NCBI RefSeq assembly: GCF_002931075.1 | Contig: NZ_PSTQ01000008.1 | Coordinates: 62,001-126,000, forward strand | DNA: 64,000 nt | Reading direction: 5' to 3' | Origin: Pseudoclavibacter sp. AY1F1 | GTDB lineage: Bacteria > Actinomycetota > Actinomycetes > Actinomycetales > Microbacteriaceae | In this document: positions 491-60,352 of the stretch, one piece after another | Position numbering within the stretch: the first letter of the stretch is position 1 | Layout of the letters: each line of letters opens with the position of its first letter | The notes under the pieces: generated by a model | What the model was told of the DNA's origin: nothing | The model's input: only the letters and a program-made list of their open reading frames with translations | The model's database searches: none | Program-made: the position numbers and the translations under genes

Positions 491-2092
491 GTGACGAACG
501 CAGCATCCAATCCCAAAAACCACCTCTCGCGCCGCACGGTCATCGCCACCGCCGCCTGGACCACGCCCGTCCTCGCCGCGGTCGCCAGCGCGCCGCTCGC
601 CGCCGCGTCCAACGAGCCCCTCATCGTGGGGCTCACCGGTTTCGGTGCAACGCGCTGCGGCATCATCGACGCCGGCGCCGTCCGTTTCGAGGCCACTGTC
701 GGCGAGAAGCCTGCACCGACGACTGGAACGGTCGCCATCCAGCTCCCCGTGGGGCTCGAGTTCACGACTGGCGGGCGCACAGCAACCGTCAACATCGGTC
801 AGGGTGGCGTCGCCCAGGTCCCCGCCTTCACAGCGACTGGAGCGGCGGGCGCCTACACGATCACCGCCACCTACCAGGGCGTCGTCGCGTACGCCTTCGG
901 GAATATCACTGCCTCACCCGGCCAGGTGGTGCAGATCACGCGCACCGTCGGAACCACCTCCAGCAACGCTCCGACGATCAACTGGTCGACAGTGCCCGGA
1001 CTCACGACGGCGACAGTCGGAGCGATCTCAGGCGACCAAGCAAATGGCAGCGCCGGTTCGAACGCTGCCGTGCTCGTCGCAGGTGGGCTTGTCCGCTACT
1101 GGGGTCTCAACGTCGGATCGACGCAGAGCGCCCCCGGCACGCTGCAGCACGGCGGTGCCAACGTCGCGAACATGAAGTTCGTGGACGCCTGGACCTCACT
1201 TCAGGTGAACAACAACTCGACCGGCGGCGTCGCAGCTGGCAGCACCGGCGGCGAGGTCTACCAGTGGTACCGGACAGGGACAGGCACGGGGTCGCCGATT
1301 GTCGTGAAGGTCAACGGGATCACCGGCACCCTCGTCGCTGCCGAGTCGAACGACGGCTTCAGCTACGCCCTCACGTCCACGGGCCTCTACTACTGGGGCA
1401 ACGCGACCAGCGGCACGACCGTCGACGCCACACTCATCCCGGGCACCGCTGGTGCCTCGGCCATCAGCACTTTCGGCGTACGCGAAACCAGCTTCGTGCA
1501 CGGCGGGGCGGTTCTCTTCGCGAACGGCACCATCCGTCAGTGGAACAACGGGCACACACTTTCCACTGTCGCGGGGGCGCCAGCCGGCATCGCGCAGGTC
1601 GAGGCGAACTCCGGTGCCATCATCGTGCGCACCGCGAGCGGCGACCTGTGGACAAGCGGCGCCGCGTTGGGCTTCTCCTCGGGTGGGACTGCGTGGACGA
1701 GGCGCGCCCGAAACGTCGCCGCGTTCGCCTCATGGGCGATCCGCAACTACGTCGGCGGCCTGTACATCACATCGACGGGAACGATGATGCAGTTCCACGC
1801 TTCGACGCGCATCCCGGGCATCAGCGTCGACTACGCGTTCAGGGCTGAGGCCAAGACCGGGGACGCCACTGGCAAGGCCATCACGAAGGTCTTCGCGTCC
1901 GACGGCACCTACCTCGCCCTCGCCTCCGACGGCAGCGTGTACGCGTGGGGCGGCAACCTCGACAACGGAACCCGCGGCAACCCGAAGCTGGTTCCGAGCG
2001 ACAATGTCATCGACCTCAACGTGTGGGGCTACCACCCCACCGCCGGTAGCTACTACGGGGGCGGCTACGTCATCGAGGGCACCGTCTGCTGA
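491..2092 (+). CDS. Secreted RCC1-repeat-like protein with RR-x7-W-x2-P Tat-type signal
   Basis: 533 residues. GTG 491 was chosen because CAGGAG lies just upstream; the frame is open further 5' (GTG 353) without a binding site. R14-R15, W23 and P26 are followed by a hydrophobic run ending PLAAAS, predicting export, probably by Tat, and cleavage near residue 39. An Ig-like beta region follows (about 45-160). The rest has repeated short units with YWG, AWG or QW cores (GLVRYWG, GLYYWG, GSVYAWGGN) that resemble RCC1/BNR-type beta-propeller blades. It has no LPXTG or C-terminal anchor. It is the largest family member in the window. The mature function is unknown; a surface or secreted binding protein is inferred. 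Confidence 0.8.
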   Translation: MTNAASNPKNHLSRRTVIATAAWTTPVLAAVASAPLAAASNEPLIVGLTGFGATRCGIIDAGAVRFEATVGEKPAPTTGTVAIQLPVGLEFTTGGRTATVNIGQGGVAQVPAFTATGAAGAYTITATYQGVVAYAFGNITASPGQVVQITRTVGTTSSNAPTINWSTVPGLTTATVGAISGDQANGSAGSNAAVLVAGGLVRYWGLNVGSTQSAPGTLQHGGANVANMKFVDAWTSLQVNNNSTGGVAAGSTGGEVYQWYRTGTGTGSPIVVKVNGITGTLVAAESNDGFSYALTSTGLYYWGNATSGTTVDATLIPGTAGASAISTFGVRETSFVHGGAVLFANGTIRQWNNGHTLSTVAGAPAGIAQVEANSGAIIVRTASGDLWTSGAALGFSSGGTAWTRRARNVAAFASWAIRNYVGGLYITSTGTMMQFHASTRIPGISVDYAFRAEAKTGDATGKAITKVFASDGTYLALASDGSVYAWGGNLDNGTRGNPKLVPSDNVIDLNVWGYHPTAGSYYGGGYVIEGTVC

Positions 2093-2110
2093 CCAGCTCC
2101 AACGAGCGGA

Positions 2111-2142
2111 CGGGGGTCGGATGCACGTGCTTCCGGCCCCTG
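2111..2142 (+). terminator. Hairpin terminator
   Basis: ggggtcgga and ttccggcccc pair around a short loop, with one G-T pair, about 20 bases after the stop of the RCC1-like gene. No strong T-run follows. Confidence 0.5.
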
Positions 2143-2272
2143 GCCGTCTTGGCGTCTCCTGAGGACAGATCCGGGAGTGATCGGGAAGATCCGCGTTGCA
2201 TCCCTCCTCATCACGGACGACCGGCTGTCAAGTCCCAGCACAAGGTGAGCACGAGGCATCATCCTGAGATGG

Positions 2273-3355
2273 ATGCATAGAATCGCGAGCGCACTCGTCC
2301 CCGCCGTCACGCCTCCCCGCCTGCTGCACGTCGCCAAGACGGCTGCCGCAGCGACGCTTGCCTGGTACGCCGGACACCTCGTCCCCGGCGAGGCGAATGC
2401 GTACGCCTACTACGCGCCCCTCGGTGCGTTGGTCGCCAGTGTGCCGACCGTGGCCGGATCCGTGCGGTCGAGTGTGCAGGTCGTGGTTGGTGTTCTCCTC
2501 GGCGTACTCGCATCCGGTGCGCTTGTCACCATCGGAATCCCAGTGGCGCTCGCTGTTCCCGTGGCGGTCGGAGTCGGAACGCTGCTGGCGGGCATCCCCG
2601 CCTTCGGGGCAGGGCGCGACTACATCCCGATCGCGGCGCTGTTCGTGTTCGTCGTCGGCGGTGCGAACCCGGATGGCTTCTCCATCGGCTACGTCGTCCA
2701 GATGGCTGTCGGGGCGGCCATCGGCGTCGGGCTGAACCTGCTGGTCCCGCCCTCGACCGGGACCAAGCACGCGTTGGAGGCCCTCAGCACGGTCAAGAAA
2801 TCGGCCGCTGACGCTATCAAACGCGCTACCGAGCTGCCCGGCGAAGAGCACCCTCGGGATGCACTCGATGAGTGGCGGGCCTCGCTTCGTCGCCTCGAGG
2901 CTCACCTCGCCGACACCAAGACGCTCGTCGGCGAGGCGCAAGACAATTTGCGAGGCAACGCGCGGCGCCTTCGGTCGAAGTTCGACACCAATTCGGCGCA
3001 GGGCGAGCTCGACAGCATCAGCCGCATCGTCCGGCATACCGAGGAGCTGCAGGAACCGTTCCTCGAGAGCTCGTGGAGCGAGGCGCGAACGGAGTCGCGC
3101 CGCGCTCTCGCTGCGGCCGGCGAGCAGATCGCGCAGCTCCTCCAAGCGTGGGATGAGTCCTACGACGAGCTGTCCCCGAGACTCGGCGCCGCATCCACCG
3201 CTCTCGAAGATCTGCAGCAACTCGAGTTCGAGCACCACACGGGATGGGACCCGGCCGCTCAACGCCGATCAGTCACGATCTACGCACTCCGGAAGGTCGT
3301 CGCCGAAATCGAGTACCGCGTCGATGGGGAGAAGCACGCAAGTTCCGAGAGTTGA
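2273..3355 (+). CDS. FUSC / aromatic-acid-exporter-like membrane protein
   Basis: 360 residues starting at ATG 2273. The first 170 residues form about five to six hydrophobic helices (LLHVAKTAAAATLAWYAG onward; GVLLGVLASGALVTIGIPV; GYVVQMAVGAAIGVGLNLLVPP). The remaining half is charged and helical, probably coiled coil and cytoplasmic. This layout matches the FUSC/ArAE family of putative exporters (half-size bacterial form). The substrate is unknown. The gene stands alone between two secreted-protein genes on the same strand. Confidence 0.7.
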   Translation: MHRIASALVPAVTPPRLLHVAKTAAAATLAWYAGHLVPGEANAYAYYAPLGALVASVPTVAGSVRSSVQVVVGVLLGVLASGALVTIGIPVALAVPVAVGVGTLLAGIPAFGAGRDYIPIAALFVFVVGGANPDGFSIGYVVQMAVGAAIGVGLNLLVPPSTGTKHALEALSTVKKSAADAIKRATELPGEEHPRDALDEWRASLRRLEAHLADTKTLVGEAQDNLRGNARRLRSKFDTNSAQGELDSISRIVRHTEELQEPFLESSWSEARTESRRALAAAGEQIAQLLQAWDESYDELSPRLGAASTALEDLQQLEFEHHTGWDPAAQRRSVTIYALRKVVAEIEYRVDGEKHASSES

Positions 3356-3490: not shown

Positions 3491-4129
3491 TTGCTGGAAC
3501 GCACGTCCCCCTCGTCCGAGCCTCGTCTCTCCCGCCGCCACCTGGTTGCGGGAGCTGCGTGGGCAGCACCAGTCGTCGCCATCGCTGTGGCGGCACCCGC
3601 CCGCGCCGCCTCGACAGAGTGCACTCCGCAGGCAGCAGCACAGATCACCACCGCGTGGCGCTTCAACGGCAACATCACCAACTGGACCCTCGCACGCTCC
3701 CCGGCCAACGCCCCCAACGTCGGCTACTCCGCGAGCTACCAGGGGCAGGGCCCCAACAGCGTGAGCAATGCGGCCGTCCTGGATGCAGACCCGCTCGCGG
3801 TTGCATCCACGACGAGCCTTTCCAACACGGCCTGCTTCGGCCCCGGCACGTACACGTTCACGTACACGGGCCGCGCCTGGACCACGAACACCCGCACCCT
3901 CACCTTGACCGGCCGCGTCGTCAGCGATGCAGCTCCGGGAACAACCTTGGCGACCGACACCTTCACGACGGCGACGAACACGACGACGTTCACACGAACC
4001 CTCACCGTGACCATCCCAGTGCGCACTCGTCTTCGCTTCACGTACGCATGGGGGTTCACTGCCGGTTCGGCGAGCCAGACCGGTGACGACATCGGTGTGG
4101 GCGCCCCGGCAGTCGCGAAAACGGCGTAA
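3491..4129 (+). CDS. Secreted protein with RR-x7-W-x2-P Tat-type signal
   Basis: 212 residues from TTG 3491, chosen because AGAGGAA lies a few bases upstream. R15-R16, W24 and P27 are followed by a hydrophobic stretch ending ARAAS near residue 40. The mature part has two cysteines (TEC, TAC), is rich in Thr/Ser/Ala and reads as beta strands (GTYTFTYTGRAW; LTVTIPVRTRLRFTYAWGF). It has no membrane anchor. The fold suggests a small beta-sandwich, but no family was recognised. A shared terminator with lysS follows. Confidence 0.78.
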   Translation: MLERTSPSSEPRLSRRHLVAGAAWAAPVVAIAVAAPARAASTECTPQAAAQITTAWRFNGNITNWTLARSPANAPNVGYSASYQGQGPNSVSNAAVLDADPLAVASTTSLSNTACFGPGTYTFTYTGRAWTTNTRTLTLTGRVVSDAAPGTTLATDTFTTATNTTTFTRTLTVTIPVRTRLRFTYAWGFTAGSASQTGDDIGVGAPAVAKTA

Positions 4130-6830: not shown

Positions 6831-7526
6831 TCACGCGCTGCGCGCCTTCGCCCAGTCGACGACCCCTTCGAGGTAGGCGACGATCGTCTCGGCGGCGGGC
6901 ACGAGCTCGCGGCCAGAGCGCTGGTAGGTCTCTTCTGAGCGTCGGAACGGGTCGACGACGTCGTAGTCGCTGGCGTTCTCGAGCGGGGCGATAACGCCTC
7001 GAAGTGGGGCCGCCGCGCTGACGGCGGCGGCGAGTGCCGCGGCGACGATGTCCTGTTCGGATGCTCCCGACGCGGGTGCGTCGGCTCCACCGTCAAGCGA
7101 TTCGCGGCGCGAGCGACGAGAACCGGATGCCGCACCCGGGGCCTCATAAGACTCCTCGAGGTCTTCAGCCGTGACCTGGCTGGCGATGTGCGCGAACTCG
7201 CGCAGGGTGAAGGTGCGGCGTACGACTGAGGGCGCGAGTTCGACGATGCGCTGGCGGTGATCACGCGACAGGGCCAGAACAAGGCCGGCACCGCGAGCGA
7301 TGTCCTCGGTGAGCTGTCTGGAGATGTGGGCTTCCGCATCCGTCACCCCGTACTGGGCGGCGAGGGCCAGCGCGGGCTGCGGCATGCCGCTCCCGACGAG
7401 GGCACCCGTGCCGCCGCTTTCGACGGTCACGCCCGGGAGGCCCTTGAGGCCGTCGCGCAGGAGTTGCTCGGCGAGGGGTGACCGGCAGATGTTGCCCGTG
7501 CAGACCGTCAGGATGCGAAAGCTCAT
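6831..7526 (-). CDS. Low-molecular-weight protein tyrosine phosphatase with insertion
   Basis: 231 residues from ATG 7526. The catalytic P-loop C9-TGNIC-R15-S is intact (Cx5RS), and the general-acid Asp lies in DVVDPF (D192-P193), so it should be active. Members usually run about 150-180 residues; here about 70 extra residues (about 118-187, Arg/Ser-rich then Ala-rich) separate the core from the DP loop. A second such phosphatase lies at 38379-38930 beside its kinase; this one has no kinase neighbour and sits between secreted-protein genes. Its substrate is unknown. Confidence 0.88.
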   Translation of the reverse strand: MSFRILTVCTGNICRSPLAEQLLRDGLKGLPGVTVESGGTGALVGSGMPQPALALAAQYGVTDAEAHISRQLTEDIARGAGLVLALSRDHRQRIVELAPSVVRRTFTLREFAHIASQVTAEDLEESYEAPGAASGSRRSRRESLDGGADAPASGASEQDIVAAALAAAVSAAAPLRGVIAPLENASDYDVVDPFRRSEETYQRSGRELVPAAETIVAYLEGVVDWAKARSA

Positions 7527-8642: not shown

Positions 8643-9488
8643 TTAGGGGCGATAGCTCCTGGGGCTGGCATGCCCAACCGCCGACATGGCGCGGGCGAGG
8701 GCGGACCCACCGCTGAAACCCGTGAGAGCGGCGATCTGGGAGATGGTGAGACCGGCACGTGAAGGGTCCCGCAACAGGTCTAGGGCGTGCAGGACCCGAG
8801 CATCCCGGACCGCGCGACGCACCGTCTGCCCGCGCTGCTGGAACTCGCGTTCGAGGTTCCTGAGCGAGACGTTGAGCTCGTTAGCGATGCTCCCTGCTGA
8901 GCAGTTGGGTTGCGTCGCATCGCGTCGGATCACCTGAAGGGCAAGCTCGTACGTGGATGGTCGCTCGGGGAACCGGATCTCGCCTTCGGAGTAGGCAAGC
9001 AGTTCACGAACCATGACTCGCGCCATGCGCTCGAGCGCTCTGGCGTCGAGGCTCGTCCCCGGATGCTTGTCGGCGAGCAGGGCAACGCCGAATCCGGTGA
9101 TGCCGGAGATCAGCGGTGAGGGTCTCAGGGAGAGCAGACCGTTGATCGCAACGTCGCTTTCGTCGCGGTTGCCTTCGCCGGCGGAGCCGATGAGGGAGAG
9201 CACTGTCGTCGGTGTCGTGACGTTGATCTCGAGCTTCGTCTCCTCGAGGTGCAGGAACCCGGCCCCCGCCTCGACCTGCAATTCGCGCTGTTCTTGGTTC
9301 GTGATGGTGACTGGCCCACCGTCGAGAACCACGGTGAGGCGGGAGGTGAGCGGTCGCTCGTGCATTCGCTGCACGACGGCTCGGCCTTCGCCGAGCGTGA
9401 GCTGCTGGACGGCGACGTGCGCGAACTGGAGAGAGCGGGTCGTTGTGACTCGGTGTGCTCCTTCTTGGAGCGGGAGCTGAGCCCACAC
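8643..9488 (-). CDS. AraC-family transcriptional regulator
   Basis: 281 residues. GTG 9488 is the first usable start, 8 bases after the panC stop, so translational coupling to panC is possible; no strong binding site is visible. The N-terminal about 150 residues form a sensor-like beta region. The C-terminal 100 residues carry two helix-turn-helix units (CSAGSIANELNVSLRNLEREF; ISQIAALTGFSGGSALARAM) as in AraC DNA-binding domains. The gene lies directly upstream of the secreted-protein gene 7589-8377. It differs in sequence from the AraC-like proteins at 47742, 49499 and 60556. Confidence 0.82.
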   Translation of the reverse strand: MWAQLPLQEGAHRVTTTRSLQFAHVAVQQLTLGEGRAVVQRMHERPLTSRLTVVLDGGPVTITNQEQRELQVEAGAGFLHLEETKLEINVTTPTTVLSLIGSAGEGNRDESDVAINGLLSLRPSPLISGITGFGVALLADKHPGTSLDARALERMARVMVRELLAYSEGEIRFPERPSTYELALQVIRRDATQPNCSAGSIANELNVSLRNLEREFQQRGQTVRRAVRDARVLHALDLLRDPSRAGLTISQIAALTGFSGGSALARAMSAVGHASPRSYRP

Positions 9489-43895: not shown

Positions 43896-43905
43896 CGCTT
43901 CCAGC
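43888..43905. repeat. 18-bp direct repeat, right copy
   Basis: It is identical to 43442-43459; see that entry for the shared sequence and the fragment lying between the copies. Confidence 0.8.
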
Positions 43906-50449: not shown

Positions 50450-51078
50450 GAGGCGTTTTCGTTGTTGAAGTATGCGTAGTTCGAGTATCCGGGGTTGTTG
50501 GCTGGATCTGTTTCGATTGCCCCGGTGGCACCAACTCCGATGTTCGTGTAGGACCGAACTCGGTAGAAGTTTGTTGCCGTATTCGAGACACCGTTCAGCT
50601 CCACTCGGAAGACAAGATCGAACGATGCGCCAGCGGCTAGCGGCGTTGGCAATTGAAAGCTCCAGATGCGTCGAAGCGCGGCCGGGCTTCCGGGGATACT
50701 GATATCCGCAGTGGAGGTACCCGTGAATGCGGGATTTCTGCCGCTCGTGTCCTCGATGATCGTTAGCGAGTCTGTAACCCAGATGGCAGCGAATGGAAGC
50801 CCGAACTGGATGATTCCGCCAGCGGGAAGGGCATCCGGACCGTTGTTTCTGTACGTTGCCCGGAAAGTCAGCACCCTTGGGCCCTGATAGTAGGGATCGG
50901 CTAGATACGAACCGTTGCTGGCCTCGATCGGGAGCCTCGCGGTCGAGGCGAGATCCACGAGGATCGACCCCGACGCTGCAGCGAATGGCGTCGCCACCGA
51001 GACAGCGATCACGGGTGCGGCCCACGCCGCCGTCCGAATCACACTTCGTCGACTCGATTTCTGGTCGAGGGCATCCAT
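50446..51078 (-). CDS. Secreted protein with RR-x7-W-x2-P Tat-type signal
   Basis: 210 residues from ATG 51078, with AGGAAC upstream. R10-R11, W19 and P22 are followed by a hydrophobic run ending PFAAAS near residue 36. The mature part has no Cys and reads like a DUF11/Ig-type repeat (VLTFRATYRNNGPDALPAGG; AGASFDLVFRVELNGVSNTA), ending in Asn/Tyr-rich PGYSNYAYFNNENAS. It could be a cell-surface adhesin-like sandwich. It is convergent with the AraC-like gene at 49499. Confidence 0.78.
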   Translation of the reverse strand: MDALDQKSSRRSVIRTAAWAAPVIAVSVATPFAAASGSILVDLASTARLPIEASNGSYLADPYYQGPRVLTFRATYRNNGPDALPAGGIIQFGLPFAAIWVTDSLTIIEDTSGRNPAFTGTSTADISIPGSPAALRRIWSFQLPTPLAAGASFDLVFRVELNGVSNTATNFYRVRSYTNIGVGATGAIETDPANNPGYSNYAYFNNENAS

Positions 51079-51258: not shown

Positions 51259-51993
51259 CTACACCCCGCCGAACCTCGGGAGGGGCCACACGATCGAGAA
51301 GACTTCACCGACGACGTCGTCGTCGCGCACCGTGCGCAGGCAGGATGCGTCCACTCCCCCGCCGCGGCAAGCCGCGAGCGAGTCGGACGAGTTCGTGCGG
51401 TTGTCGCCGAGCACCACGATCTGCCCCTCGGGCACCGTGAACTCGTCAAAGCAACGCAGCGAAGCCGGCGACGTCGAGCAGTCGATGGTGCCCGGCACGA
51501 ACTCGAAGTCGAGATCGACGTAGGCGCTCTCGTCGAGCGCAACACCGTCGACGACGATGCCGCCGGTCGCCGGGTCGACGGCCATGCTCTGCCCACCCGT
51601 AGCGATGACTCGCTTCACGAGGATGTGCGAGAAGCCCTGGCCGATGCCGAAGACCTCGCCGACCACGCGAGCGGCGAACCGCAGCGGGTCGCTCGGCGGC
51701 TCGGGAGGCGCCTCATCCCACGTGTCGGAAGCCGCGAAAACGACGATGTCACCTGTCGTCGGTTCGGCATCACCGAGGTACGCGAGGCGGTTCACCAGGA
51801 TGCGGTCGCCAACGGCGAGCGTGTCATCCATCGACGCCGACGGAATCGCGTACACCTTCACGAAGAAAGCTTGCACAAGCGCGAGCACGGCAAACGCGGC
51901 GACCAGATGAAAGAGCGGATGCGAGGTGACGCGTCGGAGGCGAGTCCGTGGGGCTCGCTTCGCCGGAGCGCTCGCGAGCTCTGCGTCGCTCAC
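51259..51993 (-). CDS. lepB: Type I signal peptidase (S26)
   Basis: 244 residues from ATG 51993, overlapping the stop of the kinase-like gene (ATGA). One N-terminal transmembrane helix (about 29-48) precedes the catalytic Ser in IPSASMDD (S54). The general-base Lys lies in VKRVIATGG (K127), and box E is LGDNRTNSSDS. It cleaves export signals on the outer face of the membrane. No C-terminal helix is present. Being cotranscribed with a family member and the kinase/PqqD protein suggests a special role rather than the only housekeeping copy. A fragment of a second copy lies at 43520-43756. Confidence 0.95.
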   Translation of the reverse strand: MSDAELASAPAKRAPRTRLRRVTSHPLFHLVAAFAVLALVQAFFVKVYAIPSASMDDTLAVGDRILVNRLAYLGDAEPTTGDIVVFAASDTWDEAPPEPPSDPLRFAARVVGEVFGIGQGFSHILVKRVIATGGQSMAVDPATGGIVVDGVALDESAYVDLDFEFVPGTIDCSTSPASLRCFDEFTVPEGQIVVLGDNRTNSSDSLAACRGGGVDASCLRTVRDDDVVGEVFSIVWPLPRFGGV

Positions 51994-53138
51994 CGAACCG
52001 CCGAATTGCCGACAACTGCCGCCTGAACGCGATCGACGAGATTCGCCTCGACAAGACCATCGAGGGCCACCTGCACGAGCTCGTGAGCATCCGCGACCTC
52101 ACCGTACTGCTCCATCAGTTCCGCCGTGAGCTGGGTGAGGGTCGTCCACTCGCCGAGGAGCTCCCAGAGGCCAGGAGCGATACCCGCAAGCTGACGGACC
52201 ATGCGCGACTCGAGCGTGACCGCCTCGTTCGCGAACAGCAGCCAGTGCACGCCCGCGGCGCGGCGGTAGGAATCCTCACCCACCGTCGCCGACGGCGTCG
52301 TCGAATCGGGCTCGCTGTGCCCGGAAGTCCACGGCTGCGTGTCGCCGTGCGAACTCAGGATCTCAGGAACAAGGTCAACAACCTGTGACGCCTCGGAGTA
52401 CGTGACGCGACGGACACCATCCGTCGAGTCGATGAGCTCCGCGAGCTGAACAAGCGGGTCGGGAAGCGCGGGAAGGTAGCTGAGCTCCGGCACCATCCAG
52501 CCGATAGCGCTGCCCGTCGCGACGGGAGACAGCTGCGGTCCACCATCGAGCTCGTGCTCTTCCACGCGGTGCAGCAGCACGATGGCGGCGATCCTCAACG
52601 GCACATCCGGCAGCGGACGCAAGCCGAGCGTCGCGGGAGACAACTGCGCCTTCGGCTCGCTCGGGTCGACAATGACCGAGAGCGGCTTGCGGTACGGCAG
52701 AACGTTGCCATCGAAGTCGACAGCAAGCGTCTCATCGGTGACATACCCGTACTCACGCCCGAGCGTCTTCGCGAGCGTCGTCTTGCCACGACCCGACGGC
52801 CCGACAAAGGCAATGACACGACCGTCATCGAGGGCGATACCCGCCGCGTGGATCATGACGAGCCGGCCCCCGTTGTGCTCGATCGCATCGAGCGTCACAA
52901 TCGTCGACAGCTGCGAGGCCAGATCAGCAGCCGAACCGCCGACAACATCGCTGACTTCGGGCTCGTCGAGCGGCGCGAGCGAGAGACGATGAGTCTCGTC
53001 TGGCTCTGCCTCCCCCGGCTGGCCAGACACATCCGCCCACGATTCCCGCAGATCTGCCTCGAACTCAGCCGAGATGCTCTCCTCAAACCTGAGTTCGACG
53101 TCTACGCCAAGGGGATTCAGGCGCAGTGTTCTCGTCAT
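51990..53138 (-). CDS. HPr-kinase-like ATPase with C-terminal PqqD-like domain
   Basis: About 382 residues from ATG 53138; GTG 53159 is also possible and neither has a clear binding site. The middle has a P-loop, GPSGRGKTT at about 113-121, then YVTDETLAVDFDG as in HPr-kinase-related proteins. The last about 75 residues (LWELLGEWTTLTQLTAELME, LVQVALDGLVEANLVDRV) resemble a PqqD domain. HprK-related kinases with PqqD and nucleotidyltransferase partners are known next to exopolysaccharide loci, but their substrate is not established. It is followed directly by the signal peptidase gene. Confidence 0.78.
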   Translation of the reverse strand: MTRTLRLNPLGVDVELRFEESISAEFEADLRESWADVSGQPGEAEPDETHRLSLAPLDEPEVSDVVGGSAADLASQLSTIVTLDAIEHNGGRLVMIHAAGIALDDGRVIAFVGPSGRGKTTLAKTLGREYGYVTDETLAVDFDGNVLPYRKPLSVIVDPSEPKAQLSPATLGLRPLPDVPLRIAAIVLLHRVEEHELDGGPQLSPVATGSAIGWMVPELSYLPALPDPLVQLAELIDSTDGVRRVTYSEASQVVDLVPEILSSHGDTQPWTSGHSEPDSTTPSATVGEDSYRRAAGVHWLLFANEAVTLESRMVRQLAGIAPGLWELLGEWTTLTQLTAELMEQYGEVADAHELVQVALDGLVEANLVDRVQAAVVGNSAVR

Positions 53139-53200
53139 AGTTGCAACTGTACCAAGCACGCAAGCGTCGGAACGGAACCGGGCAGAGCTCCCCTACGCCA

Positions 53201-53848
53201 CTAAACCGTGTAGACGAGGTTGGACGTGGTGGCGTCGAACTCGACGCCGTTCGAGAACAACCGAACCGTGACGAGGAACGTCACCGTGCCACTCCCGATC
53301 GCGAGCCCGGATGCGGGGACCGACCCCCACGTGATGTCTCGCGACACGTTGCTGTTGCCCGCGATCGTCCCCGCGATCGAGAAGTTCCGCGTCACGTTCC
53401 TCGCGAAGACATCACCGCCAACCGTGTTCCCCACATCCTGGAGTGCACTCGAGTACGACGTCATCGTCGCGTTCTGGATCGCGCTCGGACCGAACCCGCG
53501 GATCACAGCATCGCCAATCCCGAAGCCGCTCAAGGTGTCACTGACGTACGAGACCACGATCGTGCCCGTGATCGGCCCCGGAACGGCGCCATTCCCATTC
53601 GAGATGCGAATCACGCCCGGCCCGGCCAGGGCCACCGCGCCACCGCCCGTAGGGCCGTCAATTCTTGGCCTATTCGCCCTCGCAGGGCTGATCGTGCCCT
53701 CCAAGAACACAGCAGCGTCATTGATGGATGCCGCCGCGAGCGGTGCCGCGACCGCGATCGTGATCACCGGCGTCGCCCACGCTGCCGTTTTAAGTAGGGC
53801 GCGACGAGAGGAAGTCTGATTGGGCTGCAAAGTTTCGAACTGCGTCAT
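53201..53848 (-). CDS. Secreted protein with RR-x7-W-x2-P Tat-type signal
   Basis: 215 residues from ATG 53848, with AAAGGT upstream (the frame is open to 53917). R15-R16, W24 and P27 lead to a hydrophobic run ending PLAAAS. The mature part is Gly/Ala/Asn/Val-rich without Cys (GPGVIRISNGNGAVPGPITG; GSGTVTFLVTVRLFSNGVEF). It lies 62 bases upstream of the kinase/PqqD gene on the same strand, so it heads a three-gene unit with the signal peptidase. It is the best candidate substrate of that unit. Confidence 0.78.
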   Translation of the reverse strand: MTQFETLQPNQTSSRRALLKTAAWATPVITIAVAAPLAAASINDAAVFLEGTISPARANRPRIDGPTGGGAVALAGPGVIRISNGNGAVPGPITGTIVVSYVSDTLSGFGIGDAVIRGFGPSAIQNATMTSYSSALQDVGNTVGGDVFARNVTRNFSIAGTIAGNSNVSRDITWGSVPASGLAIGSGTVTFLVTVRLFSNGVEFDATTSNLVYTV

Positions 53849-54241
53849 GGGAGACCTTTTCGATGCCCCGGCATTGAAAGCCGGAGGAAGCGGGGGAGCT
53901 GGGGAACGGCCAGTCACAGACCAACCATTTGTTAAGTATTGCGTTAACAGAACGGGACTTCACCCCTCCAACCCAAAATCTTAAGAAAAATGCCGTAGTT
54001 GGCTTGTCTACCGACACACAAACAAGAGATTCCCCCTTATTCCCCATGACAAATCGCGGAAGATTCCTGCTTTCGTGACGCGCATCCGGATACACCCGGG
54101 GCACCAAAGGTGCCAACGCGAGACCGAACACCACCACACGCGCCGCACCGAACGGCACCGAGCACGCGCATCTGCCCACAGACCTCGATATGCTCACCGT
54201 GGCGAGTTCTCCAGGCTCGCGACGCAGATGTAAGGACCTCA
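53849..54241. promoter_or_regulatory. AT-rich divergent promoter region
   Basis: Between the secreted-protein gene and the nucleotidyltransferase gene. It is distinctly more AT-rich than its surroundings. A perfect inverted repeat TGTTAA-N8-TTAACA lies at 53930-53949, about 82 bases upstream of the start at 53848. The words ccatttg, gttaagt and gcgttaac recur upstream of the gene at 5883-6464. It probably carries a regulator site. Confidence 0.45.
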
Positions 54242-55231
54242 GTGACAGCAGCCGGCGCGTCTCCGGATACCGCGACCATCGCTTTCTCGGTAAGCGACGG
54301 AGTTGCGCTGTCAACCGCCCTCGCGCAGCACGTCGCCCGAGAACACCGCATCCGCATGCTTGTCATCAAGGGGCCCATCTCAGCCGACCTGGGACTGCGC
54401 ACTCGCAGGTACTCGACCGACGTCGACATCGTCGTCGAACCGGCCCGCACAAAAGACCTCATCGAGGCCCTCGGCGCCTACGGCTGGACCCCCCGCCCCT
54501 GGCCCGACTTCCCGAAACTCCTCGAGCAGCACTCGCGCACCCTCATCCACGAGTCGTGGCCGAACGACATCGACGTGCATCACTACTGGCCTGGCTTCCT
54601 CGGCGAGCCCCAGGACGCATTCGACCGCCTCTGGATGCACCGCATCCAGGTCAACGTCGCCGGCCACCCCATCGAGACCCCCGACCGTGCAGGAAGCGCA
54701 CTCGTGCTCGCCCTGCACTCACTCCGCGAAGAGGGACAAGTCGCGGACGACTCTCGTCAGATGACGGAGTACGCGGAACTCGTCGACGCGCTCAAGAAGA
54801 TGGAAGGCGCAGACGCCGAGTACGTCTCCCCCACCCGCACTTCGACTTCCCTCACCGAGCAGATCCTCCAAGATGCGGTGGGCACCGACTCCACGCAGAC
54901 AGCTCGACGGTTCCTCATCGACCTCGGCCACGACGTCCCACTGGTCCCAGACTCCACAGCAAGCGAACCATTGCGCCTGTGGCGCCTCAACGCGAAAGCC
55001 GAGCACGCCATGACCGGCTGGATGCTCAAACTCCAGCGGGCACCCCTGCTCAAGAAGCCCGGTATCGCCGCGCGAGCGTTCTTCCCTTCCCGCGCAGACC
55101 TCGAGGCAATCGACCCGGAGCTCCGCAACGGGACGATCAGCCTCCGGAAGTCCTGGTGGCGCCGAGTGAGCCGCGGCCTCCACGGACTGGTACAGGCAAG
55201 GCGCGACCTGCGGGCGTTCGACAAGCGCTGA
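54242..55231 (+). CDS. Nucleotidyltransferase family protein (NTP_transf_5-like)
   Basis: 329 residues from GTG 54242, with TAAGGA 5 bases upstream (the frame is open to 54110). LVIKGPISADLGL followed by YSTDVDIVVEP (D60, D62) is the metal-binding start of the NTP_transf_5-type nucleotidyltransferase fold. W and H residues follow (DIDVHHYWPGFLG). The C-terminal half is helical. Such proteins occur with HprK-like kinases and PqqD-like proteins at exopolysaccharide loci. Their nucleotide and target are not known. Confidence 0.75.
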   Translation: MTAAGASPDTATIAFSVSDGVALSTALAQHVAREHRIRMLVIKGPISADLGLRTRRYSTDVDIVVEPARTKDLIEALGAYGWTPRPWPDFPKLLEQHSRTLIHESWPNDIDVHHYWPGFLGEPQDAFDRLWMHRIQVNVAGHPIETPDRAGSALVLALHSLREEGQVADDSRQMTEYAELVDALKKMEGADAEYVSPTRTSTSLTEQILQDAVGTDSTQTARRFLIDLGHDVPLVPDSTASEPLRLWRLNAKAEHAMTGWMLKLQRAPLLKKPGIAARAFFPSRADLEAIDPELRNGTISLRKSWWRRVSRGLHGLVQARRDLRAFDKR

Positions 55232-55258: not shown

Positions 55259-55603
55259 TCAGGCGGTCGTGGCCCCTGAGTCACGCTTCTGCAGCAGGCG
55301 AGCATCCAACAGCTGCGTCACAAAAGTCAGCACCTGCTCGCCGATGACCAACTCGTCGAGCCCGTACTCGCTCGCCAGCGCACTCACGACGAGACGCAAC
55401 GATCGCTCACCGTCCAGCTCGTCCCAGATGACCGCCGCGGTGCCAGTCAGCACAAGCGGCTTGCAGTCGGTGTCCGTCAGCGAGAGGAGCGTGAGGTCGC
55501 CGCTCTCCTCATCGCGAACAAGCGCCAACGATTCCACCGGGGAGACAACAGCGTCGAAGAGCCCTTCGCTTTCGCGTCGCTCATCGCGTGTGCCCAGGTC
55601 CAT
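55259..55603 (-). CDS. PqqD-like protein
   Basis: 114 residues from ATG 55603. The core LVLTGTAAVIWDELDGERSL, then VVSALASEYGLDELVIGEQV and TFVTQLLDARLL, matches the PqqD helical fold that binds leader peptides in peptide-modification systems. No radical-SAM partner is near. It is convergent with the nucleotidyltransferase gene (27 bases between stops). A second PqqD-like domain is fused to the kinase at 51990. Confidence 0.8.
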   Translation of the reverse strand: MDLGTRDERRESEGLFDAVVSPVESLALVRDEESGDLTLLSLTDTDCKPLVLTGTAAVIWDELDGERSLRLVVSALASEYGLDELVIGEQVLTFVTQLLDARLLQKRDSGATTA

Positions 55604-55713: not shown

Positions 55714-57330
55714 CTAGTAGGCGCCTTCGCTCGCGACGACGGCGCGGGCCGTGCGGAAGAGAATGACGAAGTCGCCGGCCATCGACCAGTTCTCGACGTA
55801 GTAGAGGTCGAGGCGAACCGTTTCCTCCCACGTGAGGTTCGAGCGTCCGCTGACCTGCCAGAGGCCCGTGATGCCGGGCTTCACCATGAAGCGACGGTGC
55901 ACGTGGTCCTCGTACTGCTTGACCTCGCGGTCCAGGGGCGGGCGCGGACCGACAAGCGACATGGAGCCGCCGAAGACGTTGAGCAGCTGCGGGAGCTCAT
56001 CGATGGAGTAGCGACGGATGAACTTGCCGACCCTCGTGATACGAGGGTCGTCCTTCATCTTGAAGAGGATGTCGTTGCCGGCATCGCGACGTTCGCTCTG
56101 CAGCTTCTTAAGCACCTCTTCGGCATCGGCGCGCATGCTGCGGAACTTCCACATCGTGAAGCGGCTCCCGCCGTACCCGACGCGCTCCTGCTTGAAGAAC
56201 ACACCACCAGGCGACGTGACCGCGACCGCGACGGCCGTTCCGATGAGGATCGGCGAGAGCACCAGGATCAGGAGACCGGAGACGAGGACATCGAACGCAC
56301 GCTTGAGCAGCAGGCCCATACGCGTGAACTTCGGGGAGTCGACGTGCAGCAGCGGGAGTCCGGCGACAGGTCGGGTGACGATGCGAGGGCCACCCACATC
56401 CAGCAGACCCGGCGCAACGATAAGGAAGTGACGGTCGGGGTCGAGGTCCCAGCCGACCTCGCGGAGCCACTGCGTCGATGTGACGTCGTTGCCCGCGATG
56501 ACGACGGTGTCGGCGCCGATGGCGTCAAGCGAACCGGCGAGATCCTCGGGGTTGCCACCGATCGGCACCTCAGTGCCGGGCAGGAAGTCGGGAGCGTTCG
56601 GGTCGAGCTCACCGCTCTTCCCGTCGATGAGGCAAGCGCCGACGACGTTGTAGCCGGCCGCGTCGCGACGAGAAAGATCGCGGTTGAGGTCGAGAACCGA
56701 GTAGCGCGAACCCACGAGCAGCACTCGTGCCTGTAGGTTGCCGCCCTTGCGCTGGCGCACCAGCCACTGGCGGCCGATCCAACGCGACAGGATGAGCGCC
56801 ACCGTGCCGACAGGGAAGGCGATCAGAACATAACCACGAGCCAGCTCGAACGCGGAGAGGTACGCGAAGATCGACACGATTCCCGCGAGCATGAGCGACG
56901 CGTTGAAGACACCGCGGTACTCCTCGAAACCGGAGCCGAGGATGCGGTAGTCGCGAGTGTCGAAGAGGGAGAGCATCCACGCCCAGCCGGCGACGATCAC
57001 GGCGGAGACGAGCCAGTAGGAGACCTCGGTACTGAAAACGGCGTTAGCGCCAGACGGAACGGCGGCGTTGCCGCCGCCGAGCCAGATGAGCTGCGCGCCG
57101 AGCATGACAATCGCGAGGACGGCCAGGTCAGTGAGCACAAGAAGACGGGCGTAGCCCTGGCGCCAGTTCGCGCGACGCTTGATGCTGCGCTGAACGCGAG
57201 CCGACGGTTCAGCCGAGCTCTGCGCGAAGTGCGGCTCGACAGAGGGCACTGACTTGCTGTCGCGATCGCTGTCCGTCGTGGTTACGACGGGGATCTGCGC
57301 AGTAGCTGGCCCTGAGGTGGGAGGCGTCAC
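55714..57330 (-). CDS. Polyprenyl-phosphate sugar-1-phosphate transferase (WbaP-like)
   Basis: 538 residues from GTG 57330, with GGAG 6 bases upstream (the ORF is open to 57390). About five N-terminal membrane helices (about 60-180) precede a Rossmann-like segment (ARVLLVGSRYSVLDL). The C-terminal domain is catalytic: KRAFDVLVSGLLILVLSP, FFKQERVGYGGSRFTMWKFR, RRYSIDELPQLLNVF, SLVGPRPPLDREV. It starts repeat-unit synthesis by loading the first sugar phosphate on undecaprenyl phosphate. It lies apart from the main locus. Confidence 0.94.
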   Translation of the reverse strand: MTPPTSGPATAQIPVVTTTDSDRDSKSVPSVEPHFAQSSAEPSARVQRSIKRRANWRQGYARLLVLTDLAVLAIVMLGAQLIWLGGGNAAVPSGANAVFSTEVSYWLVSAVIVAGWAWMLSLFDTRDYRILGSGFEEYRGVFNASLMLAGIVSIFAYLSAFELARGYVLIAFPVGTVALILSRWIGRQWLVRQRKGGNLQARVLLVGSRYSVLDLNRDLSRRDAAGYNVVGACLIDGKSGELDPNAPDFLPGTEVPIGGNPEDLAGSLDAIGADTVVIAGNDVTSTQWLREVGWDLDPDRHFLIVAPGLLDVGGPRIVTRPVAGLPLLHVDSPKFTRMGLLLKRAFDVLVSGLLILVLSPILIGTAVAVAVTSPGGVFFKQERVGYGGSRFTMWKFRSMRADAEEVLKKLQSERRDAGNDILFKMKDDPRITRVGKFIRRYSIDELPQLLNVFGGSMSLVGPRPPLDREVKQYEDHVHRRFMVKPGITGLWQVSGRSNLTWEETVRLDLYYVENWSMAGDFVILFRTARAVVASEGAY

Positions 57331-57645
57331 GTGTGCTCCAATAAGAGATGAGTACTTTTTGGTGCGCACACCGCGTTGGGGACCGGGCATGCGCTTCGGG
57401 TCTCCACGGCCACTGGCCGCGCTCTGTCCGTGCCTGTGGGCTCGTCATAGAGATCCTGGGTGCCTCCTGAGAGTATCCCAACGTTCACGCATAACGAAAG
57501 GGTTACCCCGGTCTTTTTTGCGCATCTCTGGCGTGTTTTCCTGCCCGAAACATATTCGGTGTGCATTCGCGTGCGTACACATGCAAAAGGACCGCGCCGG
57601 CGCCCGAATCGTGCCAGAAACCAGGCCCGTGACATACTCACCTGC
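57331..57645. other. Divergent promoter region
   Basis: About 315 bases between the sugar transferase and LCP genes, relatively AT-rich near 57480-57560. It should contain both promoters. No gene or strong repeat was seen. Confidence 0.4.
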
Positions 57646-58755
57646 ATGGAGCAGACCCCAGGCCAGGCTTCGTCGCGCCCCCAAAGCAACGACGACGCCC
57701 TCTCAGATCTCTTCGAGCACGACGCAGCCGGCGGCTCGGACGGCACCCGCCGAGGAGCCCGCAACGAAGACAAGAAGAAGCGTCGCGGCCCGAAGATCCT
57801 TCTGTGGACGCTCGTCGGAATCCTCGTTGCGGCCGTTGCCGGCGCCGGGATCATCTGGTGGAACGTGAACCAGGCGTTCAACGACGTCGAGAAGATCCCA
57901 GACGCTCTCCCCGACTACGAGGGCCGCCCCGAGCCCCTCACTACCGACGCCGGCACACCCATGAACATCCTGCTCCTCGGCAGCGACTCACGCGCCCCAG
58001 GTAGTCCGTCGATCATGACCGACCTCGGCAGCCGCAGCGACACCATGATGCTTGTACACATTCCCGCGGACCGCAGCGACGTTCAAGTCATCTCAATCAT
58101 GCGTGACAGCTGGCTCGCCATCCCGGGGCATGGAGAGGCCAAGATCAATGCGGCCCTCTCGTACGGTGGCGTACCCCTGGTCGTCCAGACCGTCGAGGGG
58201 CTGCTCGGCCAGCGCATCGACCACGTTGCCGTTGTCGACTTCGACGGCTTCGCCGGCATCACGGATGCACTCGGTGGAGTCACGATCAACAATGACGTCG
58301 CGTTCACGTCCTCCCACAAGGCAGGTCACCAGTTCGCGGCCGGTCCCATCACACTGAACGGCGAGGAGGCGCTCGCGTTCGTTCGTGAGCGTTACGCCTT
58401 CACTGACGGCGACTACCAGCGCGTCCGCAACCAGCAGGCGTGGGTGAAGGCAGTTCTCGACAAGATGTTGACGACAGAGACCCTCACCAACCCTGGCAAG
58501 GTGCAGGACATCATCACGAAATTCTCCCCCTACATCGGCGTCGACGACACCTTTACGCTCCAGACGATGATCGATCTTGGAGTCTCCATGCGCGACGTCC
58601 GAGGAAGCAACATCCGCAGCTTCACGCTCCCCACAAACGGCACCGGCATGGTCGGTGACCAGTCCGTGGTCTTCCTCGACACCGTCAGCATCGCCGAGCT
58701 CAAGAAGCACCTCGCCGCCGACACGGTGAGCGAATACCAGCCGACAGGTCGCTGA
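57646..58755 (+). CDS. LytR-CpsA-Psr (LCP) family phosphotransferase
   Basis: 369 residues from ATG 57646 (the ORF is open to 57460; the binding site is poor). A charged cytoplasmic N-terminus and one helix (about 50-72) precede the LCP domain: MNILLLGSDSRA, SRSDTMMLVHIPADRSDVQVISIMRDSW, KINAALSYGG, and EEALAFVRERYAFTDGDYQRVRNQQ. The DS/R and RERY...D..R..NQQ residues that bind the polyprenyl pyrophosphate are present. Such enzymes attach glycans to peptidoglycan. Divergence from the initiating transferase suggests it handles the same polymer. Confidence 0.95.
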   Translation: MEQTPGQASSRPQSNDDALSDLFEHDAAGGSDGTRRGARNEDKKKRRGPKILLWTLVGILVAAVAGAGIIWWNVNQAFNDVEKIPDALPDYEGRPEPLTTDAGTPMNILLLGSDSRAPGSPSIMTDLGSRSDTMMLVHIPADRSDVQVISIMRDSWLAIPGHGEAKINAALSYGGVPLVVQTVEGLLGQRIDHVAVVDFDGFAGITDALGGVTINNDVAFTSSHKAGHQFAAGPITLNGEEALAFVRERYAFTDGDYQRVRNQQAWVKAVLDKMLTTETLTNPGKVQDIITKFSPYIGVDDTFTLQTMIDLGVSMRDVRGSNIRSFTLPTNGTGMVGDQSVVFLDTVSIAELKKHLAADTVSEYQPTGR

Positions 58756-58774
58756 CCGCTCGTCCGCTGCTCAT

Positions 58775-59371: not shown

Positions 59372-59498
59372 GGCAGGCCTTTACTCAATGGGAGAAATTG
59401 GAGCAGGACAAGTGGTGCATGCGCCGAGGGAAACACGACGCACAGAGGTTCAGATAGTAAACGCCCCGTTCGCCAACAGCAAGGCGCAGAGACACATC

Positions 59499-59529
59499 TG
59501 CCCCACGCACGGGAGCCATGCGTGGGGCA
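59499..59529 (-). terminator. Hairpin terminator
   Basis: A perfect 11-bp stem (tgccccacgca with its complement) just downstream of the secreted-protein gene ending at 59543, between it and the family member at 58844-59371. Confidence 0.7.
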
Positions 59530-59542
59530 AACGAAGCTTCGG

Positions 59543-60352
59543 CTAGCCGCAGGTCGTATTGAACGTCATGTTGCCGAGGAACACGCCCTGGCCCTGGGCA
59601 GCGGCCGTTGTGCCGTTCCATGAGTTGTAGCGGAGGCGGAACGAGGAAATCGTTCCAGGAATCGTAACGACCAGTGAGTTCGCCGTCGTGATCACACCAC
59701 TGGCCGCGTTTTCGACGTTGGCTCGCCAAGGGTTCGCGGCCGTGCCGGCGCCCTGCACCTGGGACCCGACGGCCGTGGACGTGGCCGTGAGCGCGGTGCC
59801 GGCGACCGTGGTGAGCGTGACGGCATCGTTGTACGTAGCAGCCCGAGTGATGCCCTCCAGACGGAAGGACAATCCGGTCACGGGACGCGAGAAGCTGATG
59901 TCGACCGTCTGTCCGCGCACGGGCGTCTCGGTGGCCACGCTGGTGCCCGTCACCGTCTGCACGATGGCGAACTTGCCAGGGGCGATCGTGTTGTTCCCGT
60001 CGAAGTTGCGCGCGTCGCGGGCGTAGGTGCCCCCGGTGGTGGCGCTCACGATGGAGCTGCTGCTGAACGTGACGTTGACGGGGGTGGTGGTGAAGCCGTT
60101 GACAGCGGGAAGCACGACGTTGGCGGAACCGGCAGTGGTCGAGCTCCCGGCGCCGCGAACGTAATTCACGGGCGAAGCGCCAACGGCCGAGAATCGCACC
60201 GCACCGGTGTAGGTCTGGACGCACGGCGACGCAGACGCGGCGGGAGTCGCAACCGCAATGGCCATGACGGGCACGCTCCAGGCGGCACTCTTGATGACAC
60301 CGCGACGGTTGAGGGGTTCGGAAGCGGGAGCAAACACTGGGCGCTCAGGCAT
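59543..60352 (-). CDS. Secreted protein with RR-x7-W-x2-P Tat-type signal
   Basis: 269 residues from ATG 60352. R16-R17, W25 and P28 lead to a hydrophobic run ending PAASAS. The mature part starts CVQTYTGAVRFSAVG and ends NMTFNTTCG, with Cys at both ends. The middle (TVDISFSRPVTGLSFRLEGI; GTISSFRLRYNSWNGT) resembles a jelly-roll surface domain with an N-S-W turn. The AraC-like gene at 60556 lies about 200 bases upstream on the same strand, and a nine-base G tract sits between them. Confidence 0.79.
   Translation of the reverse strand: MPERPVFAPASEPLNRRGVIKSAAWSVPVMAIAVATPAASASPCVQTYTGAVRFSAVGASPVNYVRGAGSSTTAGSANVVLPAVNGFTTTPVNVTFSSSSIVSATTGGTYARDARNFDGNNTIAPGKFAIVQTVTGTSVATETPVRGQTVDISFSRPVTGLSFRLEGITRAATYNDAVTLTTVAGTALTATSTAVGSQVQGAGTAANPWRANVENAASGVITTANSLVVTIPGTISSFRLRYNSWNGTTAAAQGQGVFLGNMTFNTTCG

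Follow-up and report, generated by a model that had tools for sequence, protein, structure and literature searches.

The known bacterial many-to-one sorting signals are mostly C-terminal, or N-terminal on Sec substrates. The leader described here shares the Arg-Arg pair, hydrophobic core and A-x-A site of standard twin-arginine signal peptides (TIGR01409), but unlike curated Tat models it has fixed Trp, Pro, Pro and Ser residues, whose spacing (RR-x7-W-x2-P-x8-P-x4-S) was kept without gaps in 120 of 122 distinct, mostly actinobacterial leaders. In the PEP-CTERM/EpsH (exosortase) system, as described in PMC1569441, a short near-invariant signal is sporadically distributed, occurs on many exported proteins and is linked to exopolysaccharide loci, and the partner EpsH was identified by phylogenetic profile. 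The present system resembles it in the sporadic pairing of many proteins with one marker enzyme and in the link to polysaccharide loci, whereas its signal is N-terminal and Tat-like and its candidate machinery comprises an RRE-kinase, a nucleotidyltransferase and a signal peptidase I rather than EpsH. Inspected by eye, the C-termini of the members showed no terminal hydrophobic segment with a basic tail of the PEP-CTERM type.

The second related system is a tailoring kit for lasso peptides, consisting of a PqqD-like B1 RRE, an HprK-like kinase (PadeK, ThcoK, BsfK) and a nucleotidyltransferase (PsmN, BsfN) (PMC9266682, PMC10368454). According to PMC9266682, these kinases carry a His-Lys-Asp-Asp motif and phosphorylate a Ser of the precursor, and PMC10368454 reports that B1 proteins require Tyr(-17), Pro(-14) and Leu(-12) of the leader. 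In the latter report, Ala changes in BsfA at -17, at -12, at -17 and -14, or at all three positions left phosphorylation unaffected, and leader removal was reduced by the triple change only. The present locus shares with this kit the three enzyme types (the nucleotidyltransferase being likened by type), an RRE match to TbiB1 and a proposed Ser target. It differs in its putative substrates, which are secreted proteins of full size, each with a Tat leader, and in the fusion of the RRE to the kinase.

The analysed window is a 64-kb stretch of a Pseudoclavibacter genome, for which the original prediction listed twelve ORFs with an RR-x7-W-x2-P leader. All 12 leaders were located in the sequence, four on the forward strand (motif Arg at 530, 3533, 44560 and 46549) and eight on the reverse strand (6407, 8335, 15069, 46099, 51051, 53806, 59320 and 60307). 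Their description as twelve ORFs needed correction for two members: the one at 14971 is a leader-only ORF, and the one given at 45516 is not a single ORF, its leader lying in the reverse-strand frame 45758–46144. The latter looks like a decayed copy, given the lack of a convincing start and the defects listed in Table 1. Six-frame translation of the window gave 12 matches to the longer pattern ending in Ser, namely 11 of the predicted leaders and one chance match with an internal stop codon (48035, forward strand), compared with an average of 0.083 matches, and never more than 1, in 60 block shuffles. A profile search (E ≤ 0.001) found 43 leaders in the whole genome, and the density described as striking was borne out: 12 of the 43 fell within the window, against approximately 0.7 expected for 64 kb under an even spread over 4.1 Mb. 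The mature parts had been called completely different, which was nearly right; among the 28 members of this genome with a sufficiently long mature part, 12 of 378 pairs were related at E < 1e-3.

Table 1. Leader genes, candidate processing genes and selected neighbours in the window.
Feature	Position	Strand	Evidence or remark
Leader protein, 533 aa, GTG start at 491	491..2092	+	RCC1-type repeat in mature part, PF13540 E 1.3e-6
Leader protein, 212 aa (TTG start assumed)	3491..4129	+	
Leader protein, 193 aa	5883..6464	-	
Low-molecular-weight tyrosine phosphatase type protein, recurrent neighbour	6831..7526	-	PF01451 E 3e-19
Leader protein, 262 aa	7589..8377	-	
AraC-family regulator	8643..9488	-	HTH_18 E 6e-14
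Leader-only ORF, 47 aa	14971..15114	-	full leader, ends 5 residues later
Polysaccharide chain-length/tyrosine-kinase type protein, glycan cluster	38930..40555	-	ParA/AAA_31 matches
Remnant, second copy of signal peptidase paralogue	43331..43918	-	77-81% identity to C-terminal part; weak S26 match E 0.044
Leader protein, 279 aa	44485..45324	+	
Decayed leader gene	45758..46144	-	second Pro one position further on; glycine-rich remainder not in frame
Leader protein, 375 aa, glycine-rich	46513..47640	+	
Leader protein, 210 aa, adjoins signal peptidase gene	50446..51078	-	
Signal peptidase I paralogue, overlaps kinase gene	51259..51993	-	Peptidase_S26 E 2.2e-27
HprK-like kinase with C-terminal PqqD/RRE domain	51990..53159	-	
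Leader protein, 215 aa, adjoins kinase gene	53201..53848	-	
NTP_transf_5 nucleotidyltransferase, start uncertain	54110..55231	+	PF14907 E 3.1e-9
Stand-alone PqqD/RRE protein	55259..55603	-	PF05402 E 4e-10
Undecaprenyl-phosphate sugar transferase type (Bac_transf), polysaccharide neighbour	55714..57390	-	PF02397 E 1.9e-67
LCP glycopolymer transferase, neighbour	57460..58755	+	TIGR00350 E 5.5e-37
Leader protein, 175 aa	58844..59371	-	
Leader protein, 269 aa	59543..60352	-	

The 122 distinct leaders showed the full spacing in 52/52 found by profile and in 68/70 found with the seed AAWSVPVI, which itself fixes Trp and Pro. Arg-Arg was present in all 122, and A-x-A preceded Ser26 in at least one register in 121; the fixed pattern spans 27 residues from RR to Ser. 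The leader region had no model match at E ≤ 1 in NCBIfam (12 of 12 window members) or Pfam (11 of 12), searches in which HMMER filters can drop weak matches, and the single TIGR01409 match in the genome lay at none of these leaders. The distribution was patchy. With 26 or 19 candidates scored per genome in the family and phylum sets, at least 37 of 299 family genomes and at least 4 of 396 phylum-level genomes, including the present one, were positive. Within these sets, the profile search proposed with the original prediction thus gave no spread over ordinary Tat substrates. Seventeen leader loci were filed outside Microbacteriaceae, three of them in metagenome-assembled genomes without a family name; their fetched flanks contained the kinase in five and the peptidase in one.

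The kinase, PqqD, NTP_transf_5 and signal peptidase paralogue genes all lie in the window among the leader genes. At E < 1e-20, a cut-off set after the list was viewed, with six candidates scored per genome, the kinase was found in at least 30 of the 299 family genomes, 29 of which were leader-positive (29 with both, 8 with the leader only, 1 with the kinase only, 261 with neither; Fisher p 6e-32, ancestry ignored). Leader and kinase counts are both lower bounds, since the limited number of candidates scored could have led to misses. No kinase was detected in 8 of the 37 leader-positive genomes, five of which had only leader matches weaker than E 1e-5; one genome (G235) had a kinase without a detected leader, and weak kinase matches (E 2e-7 to 9e-7) in four leader-negative genomes were left out by the cut-off. 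Of the three genomes with the kinase and one detected leader, two (G084, G119) had a leader gene within 5 kb of the kinase-RRE and nucleotidyltransferase genes.

The structural model of the kinase (pLDDT 91) matched the folds of PEPCK and HprK (HprK/P 3tqf, E 3.3e-4), and its C terminus matched PqqD and TbiB1 with bound leader (E 7.6e-3, TM 0.80 by target, 1.8 Å). The kinase profile also found TbiB1 by sequence (E 3.7e-4), ranked below P-loop ATPases. His104, Lys126, Asp142 and Glu143 were invariant in 36 kinase sequences. Judged by the HprK_rel_A model (TIGR04352), the kinase does not belong to that family, the matches of 20.6 and 26.8 bits being weak, located around the P-loop and below the cut-off of 200.

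The other candidate enzymes were compared between 34 leader-positive and 36 other genomes. NTP_transf_5 was found in 32 versus 4 and PqqD in 31 versus 4, the PqqD count not being independent of the kinase, as its profile also matches the kinase C terminus (the sole match in G084 and G278). The control NeuB, encoded in the same window, was found in 11 versus 13 (p 0.8). The stand-alone PqqD protein matched the lasso PqqD chaperone 9x90_B (E 1.1e-4), and its best NCBIfam model was lasso_PqqD_Bac at 27.7 bits, under the cut-off of 80. The signal peptidase paralogue retains the active-site Ser (in PSASM) and Lys (in KRVIA) and formed a clade of its own (support 100/100) against 20 housekeeping enzymes. 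This clade occurred in 22 leader-positive genomes, in none of the others and in 16 of 17 genomes with five or more leaders; it was not found in 12 of the 34, where diverged copies may have been missed because the query was taken from the present genome. The AraC-family regulator belonged to a single-linkage cluster covering 29 organism labels near leader genes, the protein at 38930..40555 grouped with BY-kinase type proteins found near leader genes, and 29/29 relatives of the 175-aa protein in the fetched loci, mostly picked by leader, bore the leader.

A Tat route is compatible with the gene neighbourhoods. In Herbiconiux gentiana, the order is leader, signal peptidase, TatA (PF02416 E 7.8e-16), TatC (PF00902 E 6.7e-60) and leader; homologues of both TatA and TatC adjoin leader genes in three other loci from Herbiconiux (L131, L166, L155), and TatA alone does so in L160. 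The candidate readers, namely the RRE-bearing kinase, PqqD, nucleotidyltransferase and separate peptidase clade, co-occur with the leader, often beside it, and we consider it very likely that this dedicated cassette serves the leader.

Could the leaders instead be ordinary Tat signals of lineage-specific surface proteins, with Trp, Pro and Ser reflecting a preference of TatBC or the housekeeping peptidase, and the cassette an unrelated occupant of the same polysaccharide island? The standard elements of the leader, the single TatC in each leader-positive Pseudoclavibacter, the polysaccharide genes surrounding the cassette and the eight leader-positive genomes without a detected kinase all fit this explanation. 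However, TatC and a housekeeping peptidase are also present in leader-negative genomes of the same genus, which have none of these leaders; in several genera leader and cassette go together whereas NeuB does not follow the leader, and Ser26 is fixed even though the A-x-A register slips by one residue. We regard this explanation as unlikely. Still less probable is that the peptidase alone accounts for the signature, by cutting after Ser26 ([AS]-x-S) while Trp and Pro position the signal at the enzyme's membrane site; the kinase-RRE would then be incidental. A cut after Ser26 did fit 121 of the 122 leaders (after residue 25, 87; after residue 24, 46), and among the genomes compared the peptidase clade, distinct from the housekeeping enzymes, was found in leader-positive ones only; against this, Ser26 was retained in 10/10 leaders from five genomes without that clade (one of which, G108, also had no detected kinase), and leader-positive genomes more often had the kinase than the peptidase.

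The kinase, PqqD and nucleotidyltransferase might also represent a lasso-peptide cluster co-occurring with the leaders by chance, given that this trio of enzyme types also takes part in the tailoring of some lasso peptides (PMC9266682, PMC10368454). A B2-type protease lies near NTP_transf_5 in three genomes of one genus (G010, G108, G220), with PqqD matches also near it in G108 and G220, and adjoins a PqqD match in G041 and leader-positive G007. A chance lasso cluster seems very improbable, as the B2 leader protease (PF13471) was not found in 29 of the 34 leader-positive genomes, including the present one, and was present in 2 of the 36 others. A single 5′ end that was recently duplicated, or spread by gene conversion, could place one leader on mostly unrelated mature parts, but this explanation has next to no chance of being correct: leaders occur in several families, and in 29 of the 43 own-genome leaders the third-base identity at shared fourfold sites was 0.308, against 0.309 expected at saturation. 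Arg codons were drawn from both codon classes, as were those of Ser26 (TCN 24, AGY 5). The saturated synonymous sites and the two Ser codon classes indicate that the leader is kept by selection rather than recent copying.

Our preferred reading is that the leader is probably a Tat signal class acting as a many-to-one sorting signal for mostly unrelated secreted proteins, served by a dedicated cassette. The original prediction that Trp and Pro are read by something beyond TatC was supported by the patchy distribution of the leader in the genomes searched, by the presence of both residues in 55/55 profile-found leaders despite saturation and by the candidate readers, from which a physical reading is inferred. 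If cleavage occurs before Ser26, the spacing of W(-17)-x2-P(-14)-x-I(-12) equals that of the lasso YxxPxL, with Trp here and Tyr in lasso leaders, which suggests RRE docking, Ser(+1) phosphorylation, Tat export and cleavage. The first step would be a docking on W(-17)-x2-P(-14)-x-I/L/V(-12), prior to export, by the PqqD/RRE domain at the end of the kinase and by the stand-alone PqqD; by analogy, docking on Trp and Pro has a little less than an even chance, an estimate lowered slightly from even by the BsfA mutant data. An aliphatic residue at -12 is expected in any hydrophobic core, the -17 count holds only for a cut before Ser26, and the stretch bound by the RRE would also have to pass into the membrane when the protein is exported; all three points count against this reading.

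The kinase would then phosphorylate the near-invariant Ser(+1), a step that we propose tentatively on the same analogy; a sugar or nucleotide may be attached to this Ser by the nucleotidyltransferase. Tat export could proceed via the single TatC in leader-positive Pseudoclavibacter or via the extra TatA-TatC in Herbiconiux, after which the paralogous signal peptidase I would cut at the A-x-A/Ser junction, leaving a (modified) N-terminal Ser that is perhaps attached to polysaccharide made by neighbouring genes. We infer the Ser modification, the order of steps and the attachment. The full RiPP-style sequence, in which the RRE docks on the Tat signal peptide itself, the kinase-RRE and nucleotidyltransferase modify the future N-terminal Ser while the protein is still cytoplasmic, and export by Tat is followed by exposure of the modified Ser through the dedicated peptidase, possibly for a polysaccharide tether, is possible but rather doubtful. 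Predictions of the preferred reading are RRE-leader binding, a modified N-terminal Ser and dependence on the peptidase. A Tat leader class of this kind, N-terminal and served by dedicated processing enzymes, would be a sorting signal of a type new to Gram-positive bacteria. It would bring surface proteins that now lack annotation, up to dozens in a genome, into one pathway, and would link RiPP maturation enzymes to protein export.

All 12 leaders listed in the original prediction were located in the window (C28:62001–126000 within a 4.1 Mb genome; 64% GC). Their description as secreted proteins did not hold throughout, as one gene is decayed and one is a short ORF, which may be a truncated gene or encode just a leader peptide. 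The spacing pattern RR-x7-W-x2-P-x8-P-x4-S, ending in Ser26, occurs in 11 of the 12 leaders and in one chance match, against an average of 0.083 matches in shuffled sequence. In the whole genome, 43 places match a 12-row leader profile at E ≤ 0.001, 12 of them inside the window. Few mature parts are related to one another (12 of the 378 own-genome pairs compared), and the leader region matched nothing in NCBIfam for any of the 12 window members and nothing in Pfam for the 11 of them compared with it. For the mature family of the gene at 58844, the predicted fold (pLDDT 73) matched nothing in PDB at E ≤ 0.001; the nearest folds, with TTHA1873 best (2.0e-3) and the biofilm hydrophobin BslA among others (3.7e-3), were kept out of the evidence.

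RR, W and P are invariant in the 55 leaders taken from 8 genomes, and the second P and Ser occur in 54, the sole exception being the decayed copy. Scanning GTDB genomes for the seed AAWSVPVI produced 171 matches, of which 100 were confirmed and 80 retained at 79 loci. The seed presets W and P and the confirmation step favours similar cores, but RR and Ser26 were left free and were nevertheless present in 74/74 and 73/74 seed-found leaders, respectively. Five of the 79 loci deviate from the seed and were left out of extraction; all five still match the full pattern. Overall, 120 of 122 distinct leaders (decayed L021 excluded) retain the full spacing, comprising 52/52 profile-found and 68/70 seed-found sequences. 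Across these 122, the A-x-A register slides by one residue while Ser26 stays constant: a cut at 25|26 alone suits 75, 24|25 alone 34, both 12 and neither one. A Cys follows the leader at position 28 in 17 of the 55 leaders, and some leader proteins also carry Cys near the C terminus. Recent duplication as the source of the likeness was ruled out by codon saturation: in 29 own-genome leaders, third-base identity at fourfold sites is 0.308 (0.309 at saturation), Ser26 is encoded by TCN in 24 and AGY in five, and the arginines by both CGN and AGR. No 6–8 base or gapped 4+4 word rose above shuffles upstream of these 29 genes.

The leader was found in 37 of 299 Microbacteriaceae genomes (20 of 85 genera) and, in the phylum sample, in 4 of 396 genomes including the source genome. 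A search of 40 relatives gave all-or-none counts within the genus (43, 26, 16, 11 and 35 in five members, 0 in five others) and 3, 10 and 1 leaders in G016, G020 and G035 outside it. Seed loci came from Herbiconiux, Microbacterium, Subtercola and Pseudoclavibacter, as well as Kocuria, Arthrobacter, Zhihengliuella, Nocardioides, Marmoricola, Flexivirga, Brevibacterium, Ornithinimicrobium and Propioniciclava; others lie in MAGs, and one is on a contig assigned to Sporosarcina. The latter locus (L132; 60.6% GC) looks like actinobacterial contamination of the Sporosarcina assembly.

An HprK-like kinase fused to a PqqD/RRE domain follows this distribution. Of the 299 family genomes, 30 contain it at E < 1e-20, and 29 of those carry the leader; weaker matches (2e-7 to 9e-7) occurred in four further genomes, all leader-negative. 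The remaining cassette genes were compared in 70 hand-picked genomes: 34 leader-positive (32 from the family scan plus G002 and G007, the latter a genus mate of the source genome; the weakest five, G096, G143, G169, G238 and G268, were left out) versus 36 genus mates and low-numbered leader-less genomes, with kinase-only G235 counted among the latter. Using the window's signal peptidase I paralogue as query, S26 scores were 154–532 bits in 22 genomes, all leader-positive, and ≤ 103.5 bits elsewhere except for a 148-bit remnant in the source genome. These 22 enzymes and relatives from named loci group apart from 20 housekeeping enzymes as a single clade (100/100). The nucleotidyltransferase NTP_transf_5 and PqqD also track the leader. 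Some PqqD matches fall on the C-terminal domain of the kinase itself, and in G108 and G220 a lasso-type protease is found close to the PqqD match. General hitch-hiking on an island was rejected, since the control gene NeuB showed no association. Leader and kinase are jointly present or absent between species within four genera (g1, g15, g33 and g51), and discordant genomes occur in four others (g2, g8, g47 and g49).

Gene order points the same way. In the window, the overlapping peptidase and kinase genes are flanked by two leader genes, with NTP_transf_5, PqqD, a sugar transferase and an LCP transferase close by. Three kinase-positive genomes have a single detected leader: in G084 and G119 a leader gene lies within 5 kb of the kinase and NTP_transf_5, and in G317 none was found within the 19 kb examined. 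Recurrent neighbours of leader genes included AraC regulators, chain-length/tyrosine kinases, an HprK-like protein, tyrosine phosphatase, NTP_transf_5 and signal peptidase I, with counts inflated by orthologous Microbacterium loci and overlapping organism labels. Among 17 leader loci filed outside Microbacteriaceae, the fetched flanks contained the kinase in five and the peptidase in one. The leader pattern searched for was absent at weak-match locus L060 and in stretches L198 and L199. In many relatives, an AraC-type regulator lies immediately upstream of leader genes, and at many Microbacterium loci a MauE-type membrane protein with Cys-x2-Cys (L071:10568–11557, + strand, and relatives) lies directly 3' of them.

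Features of the window discussed in the text
Feature	Coordinates	Strand	Remark
AraC-type regulator	8643-9488	-	amid leader genes
Leader-only ORF	14971-15114	-	47 residues; complete leader plus five residues; purine-rich site 5' of ATG
Large glycan cluster	16185-43229		several glycosyltransferases, acyltransferases, weak Wzy_C match
NeuB/xylose-isomerase-like fusion protein	33341-35587		within glycan cluster
Second peptidase-paralogue copy	43331-43918	-	remnant; other side of glycan cluster
Decayed leader gene	45758-46144	-	glycine-rich remainder out of frame
AraC-type regulator	47742-48653	-	amid leader genes
AraC-type regulator	49433-50449	+	amid leader genes
Signal peptidase I paralogue	51259-51993	-	
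HprK-like kinase with PqqD/RRE domain	51990-53159	-	

A link to the Tat pathway is indicated by Herbiconiux gentiana (L152), where the signal peptidase, TatA and TatC genes stand in this order between two leader genes. TatC and TatA matches also adjoin leader genes at L131, L166 and L155 (L070 covers the same stretch of contig); the peptidase lies directly upstream at L166 and ca. 3 kb away at L155, and none was found within the 10 kb covered at L131. At L160 the peptidase is accompanied by a TatA match, and TatC gave no match. The TatC encoded in the island shares 77% identity with a further TatC (L167) of the same genome. An extra TatC as the general reader of the leader was rejected in a survey of 15 genomes, as each of five leader-positive Pseudoclavibacter has one TatC; leader-negative G003 has two and H. 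gentiana three. The suspicion that something besides TatC reads the leader gains support from co-occurrence and gene order.

The kinase model, built from 36 sequences (pLDDT 91), best matches PEPCK folds (E ~1e-6, TM ≤ 0.43), with HprK/P at E 3.3e-4. Its C terminus resembles the B1 RRE protein TbiB1 with bound lasso leader (5v1v; 84 columns, E 7.6e-3, TM 0.80 by target, 1.8 Å) and the PqqD fold (E 9.6e-3). By sequence, the kinase profile matches TbiB1 at E 3.7e-4, ranked below P-loop ATPases, and the stand-alone PqqD matches a lasso PqqD chaperone (E 1.1e-4). Lasso B1 proteins are reported to depend on Tyr(-17), Pro(-14) and Leu(-12) of the precursor leader (PMC10368454); if the cut precedes Ser26, the W, P and I/L/V of the Tat-like leader fall at -17, -14 and -12. 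PMC9266682 describes HprK-like kinases that phosphorylate a precursor Ser and a nucleotidyltransferase tied to hexose addition onto phospho-Ser. These resemblances might suggest that the genes simply belong to lasso-peptide clusters; this reading is less favoured, given that PF13471, the family of the B2 protease, was not found in 29 of the 34 leader-positive genomes. Separate lasso-peptide-like clusters do occur, with a B2-type protease near NTP_transf_5 in G010, G108 (L198) and G220 and adjoining a PqqD match in G041 and G007:C9.

The preferred reading is a leader class with a dedicated cassette; the mechanism beyond that cassette is put forward as a hypothesis. Based on the fold and sequence matches, the -17/-14/-12 spacing and the lasso kinase and nucleotidyltransferase precedent, the RRE of the kinase and PqqD would dock on the W-P motif, Ser(+1) might then be modified, and Tat export would be followed by cleavage by the peptidase paralogue. 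Against this, PMC10368454 reports that single, double or triple Ala changes in the motif of the lasso precursor BsfA left phosphorylation unaffected, and only the triple change lowered leader removal. Furthermore, the putative docking site falls within the membrane-spanning part of the leader, and some leader genomes have no detected kinase or peptidase, yet still keep Ser26. The full BsfA mutant results slightly lowered our confidence throughout: docking, previously evenly balanced, is now considered possible but somewhat short of probable, and the scheme as a whole, cassette included, still appears modestly favoured.

Narrow literature queries found no account of this leader, its gene set or such a pairing; PEP-CTERM/EpsH offers the closest known logic. 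A further and more doubtful possibility is that the Tat leader doubles as an RRE docking peptide, in which case full-size secreted proteins would undergo RiPP-style modification.
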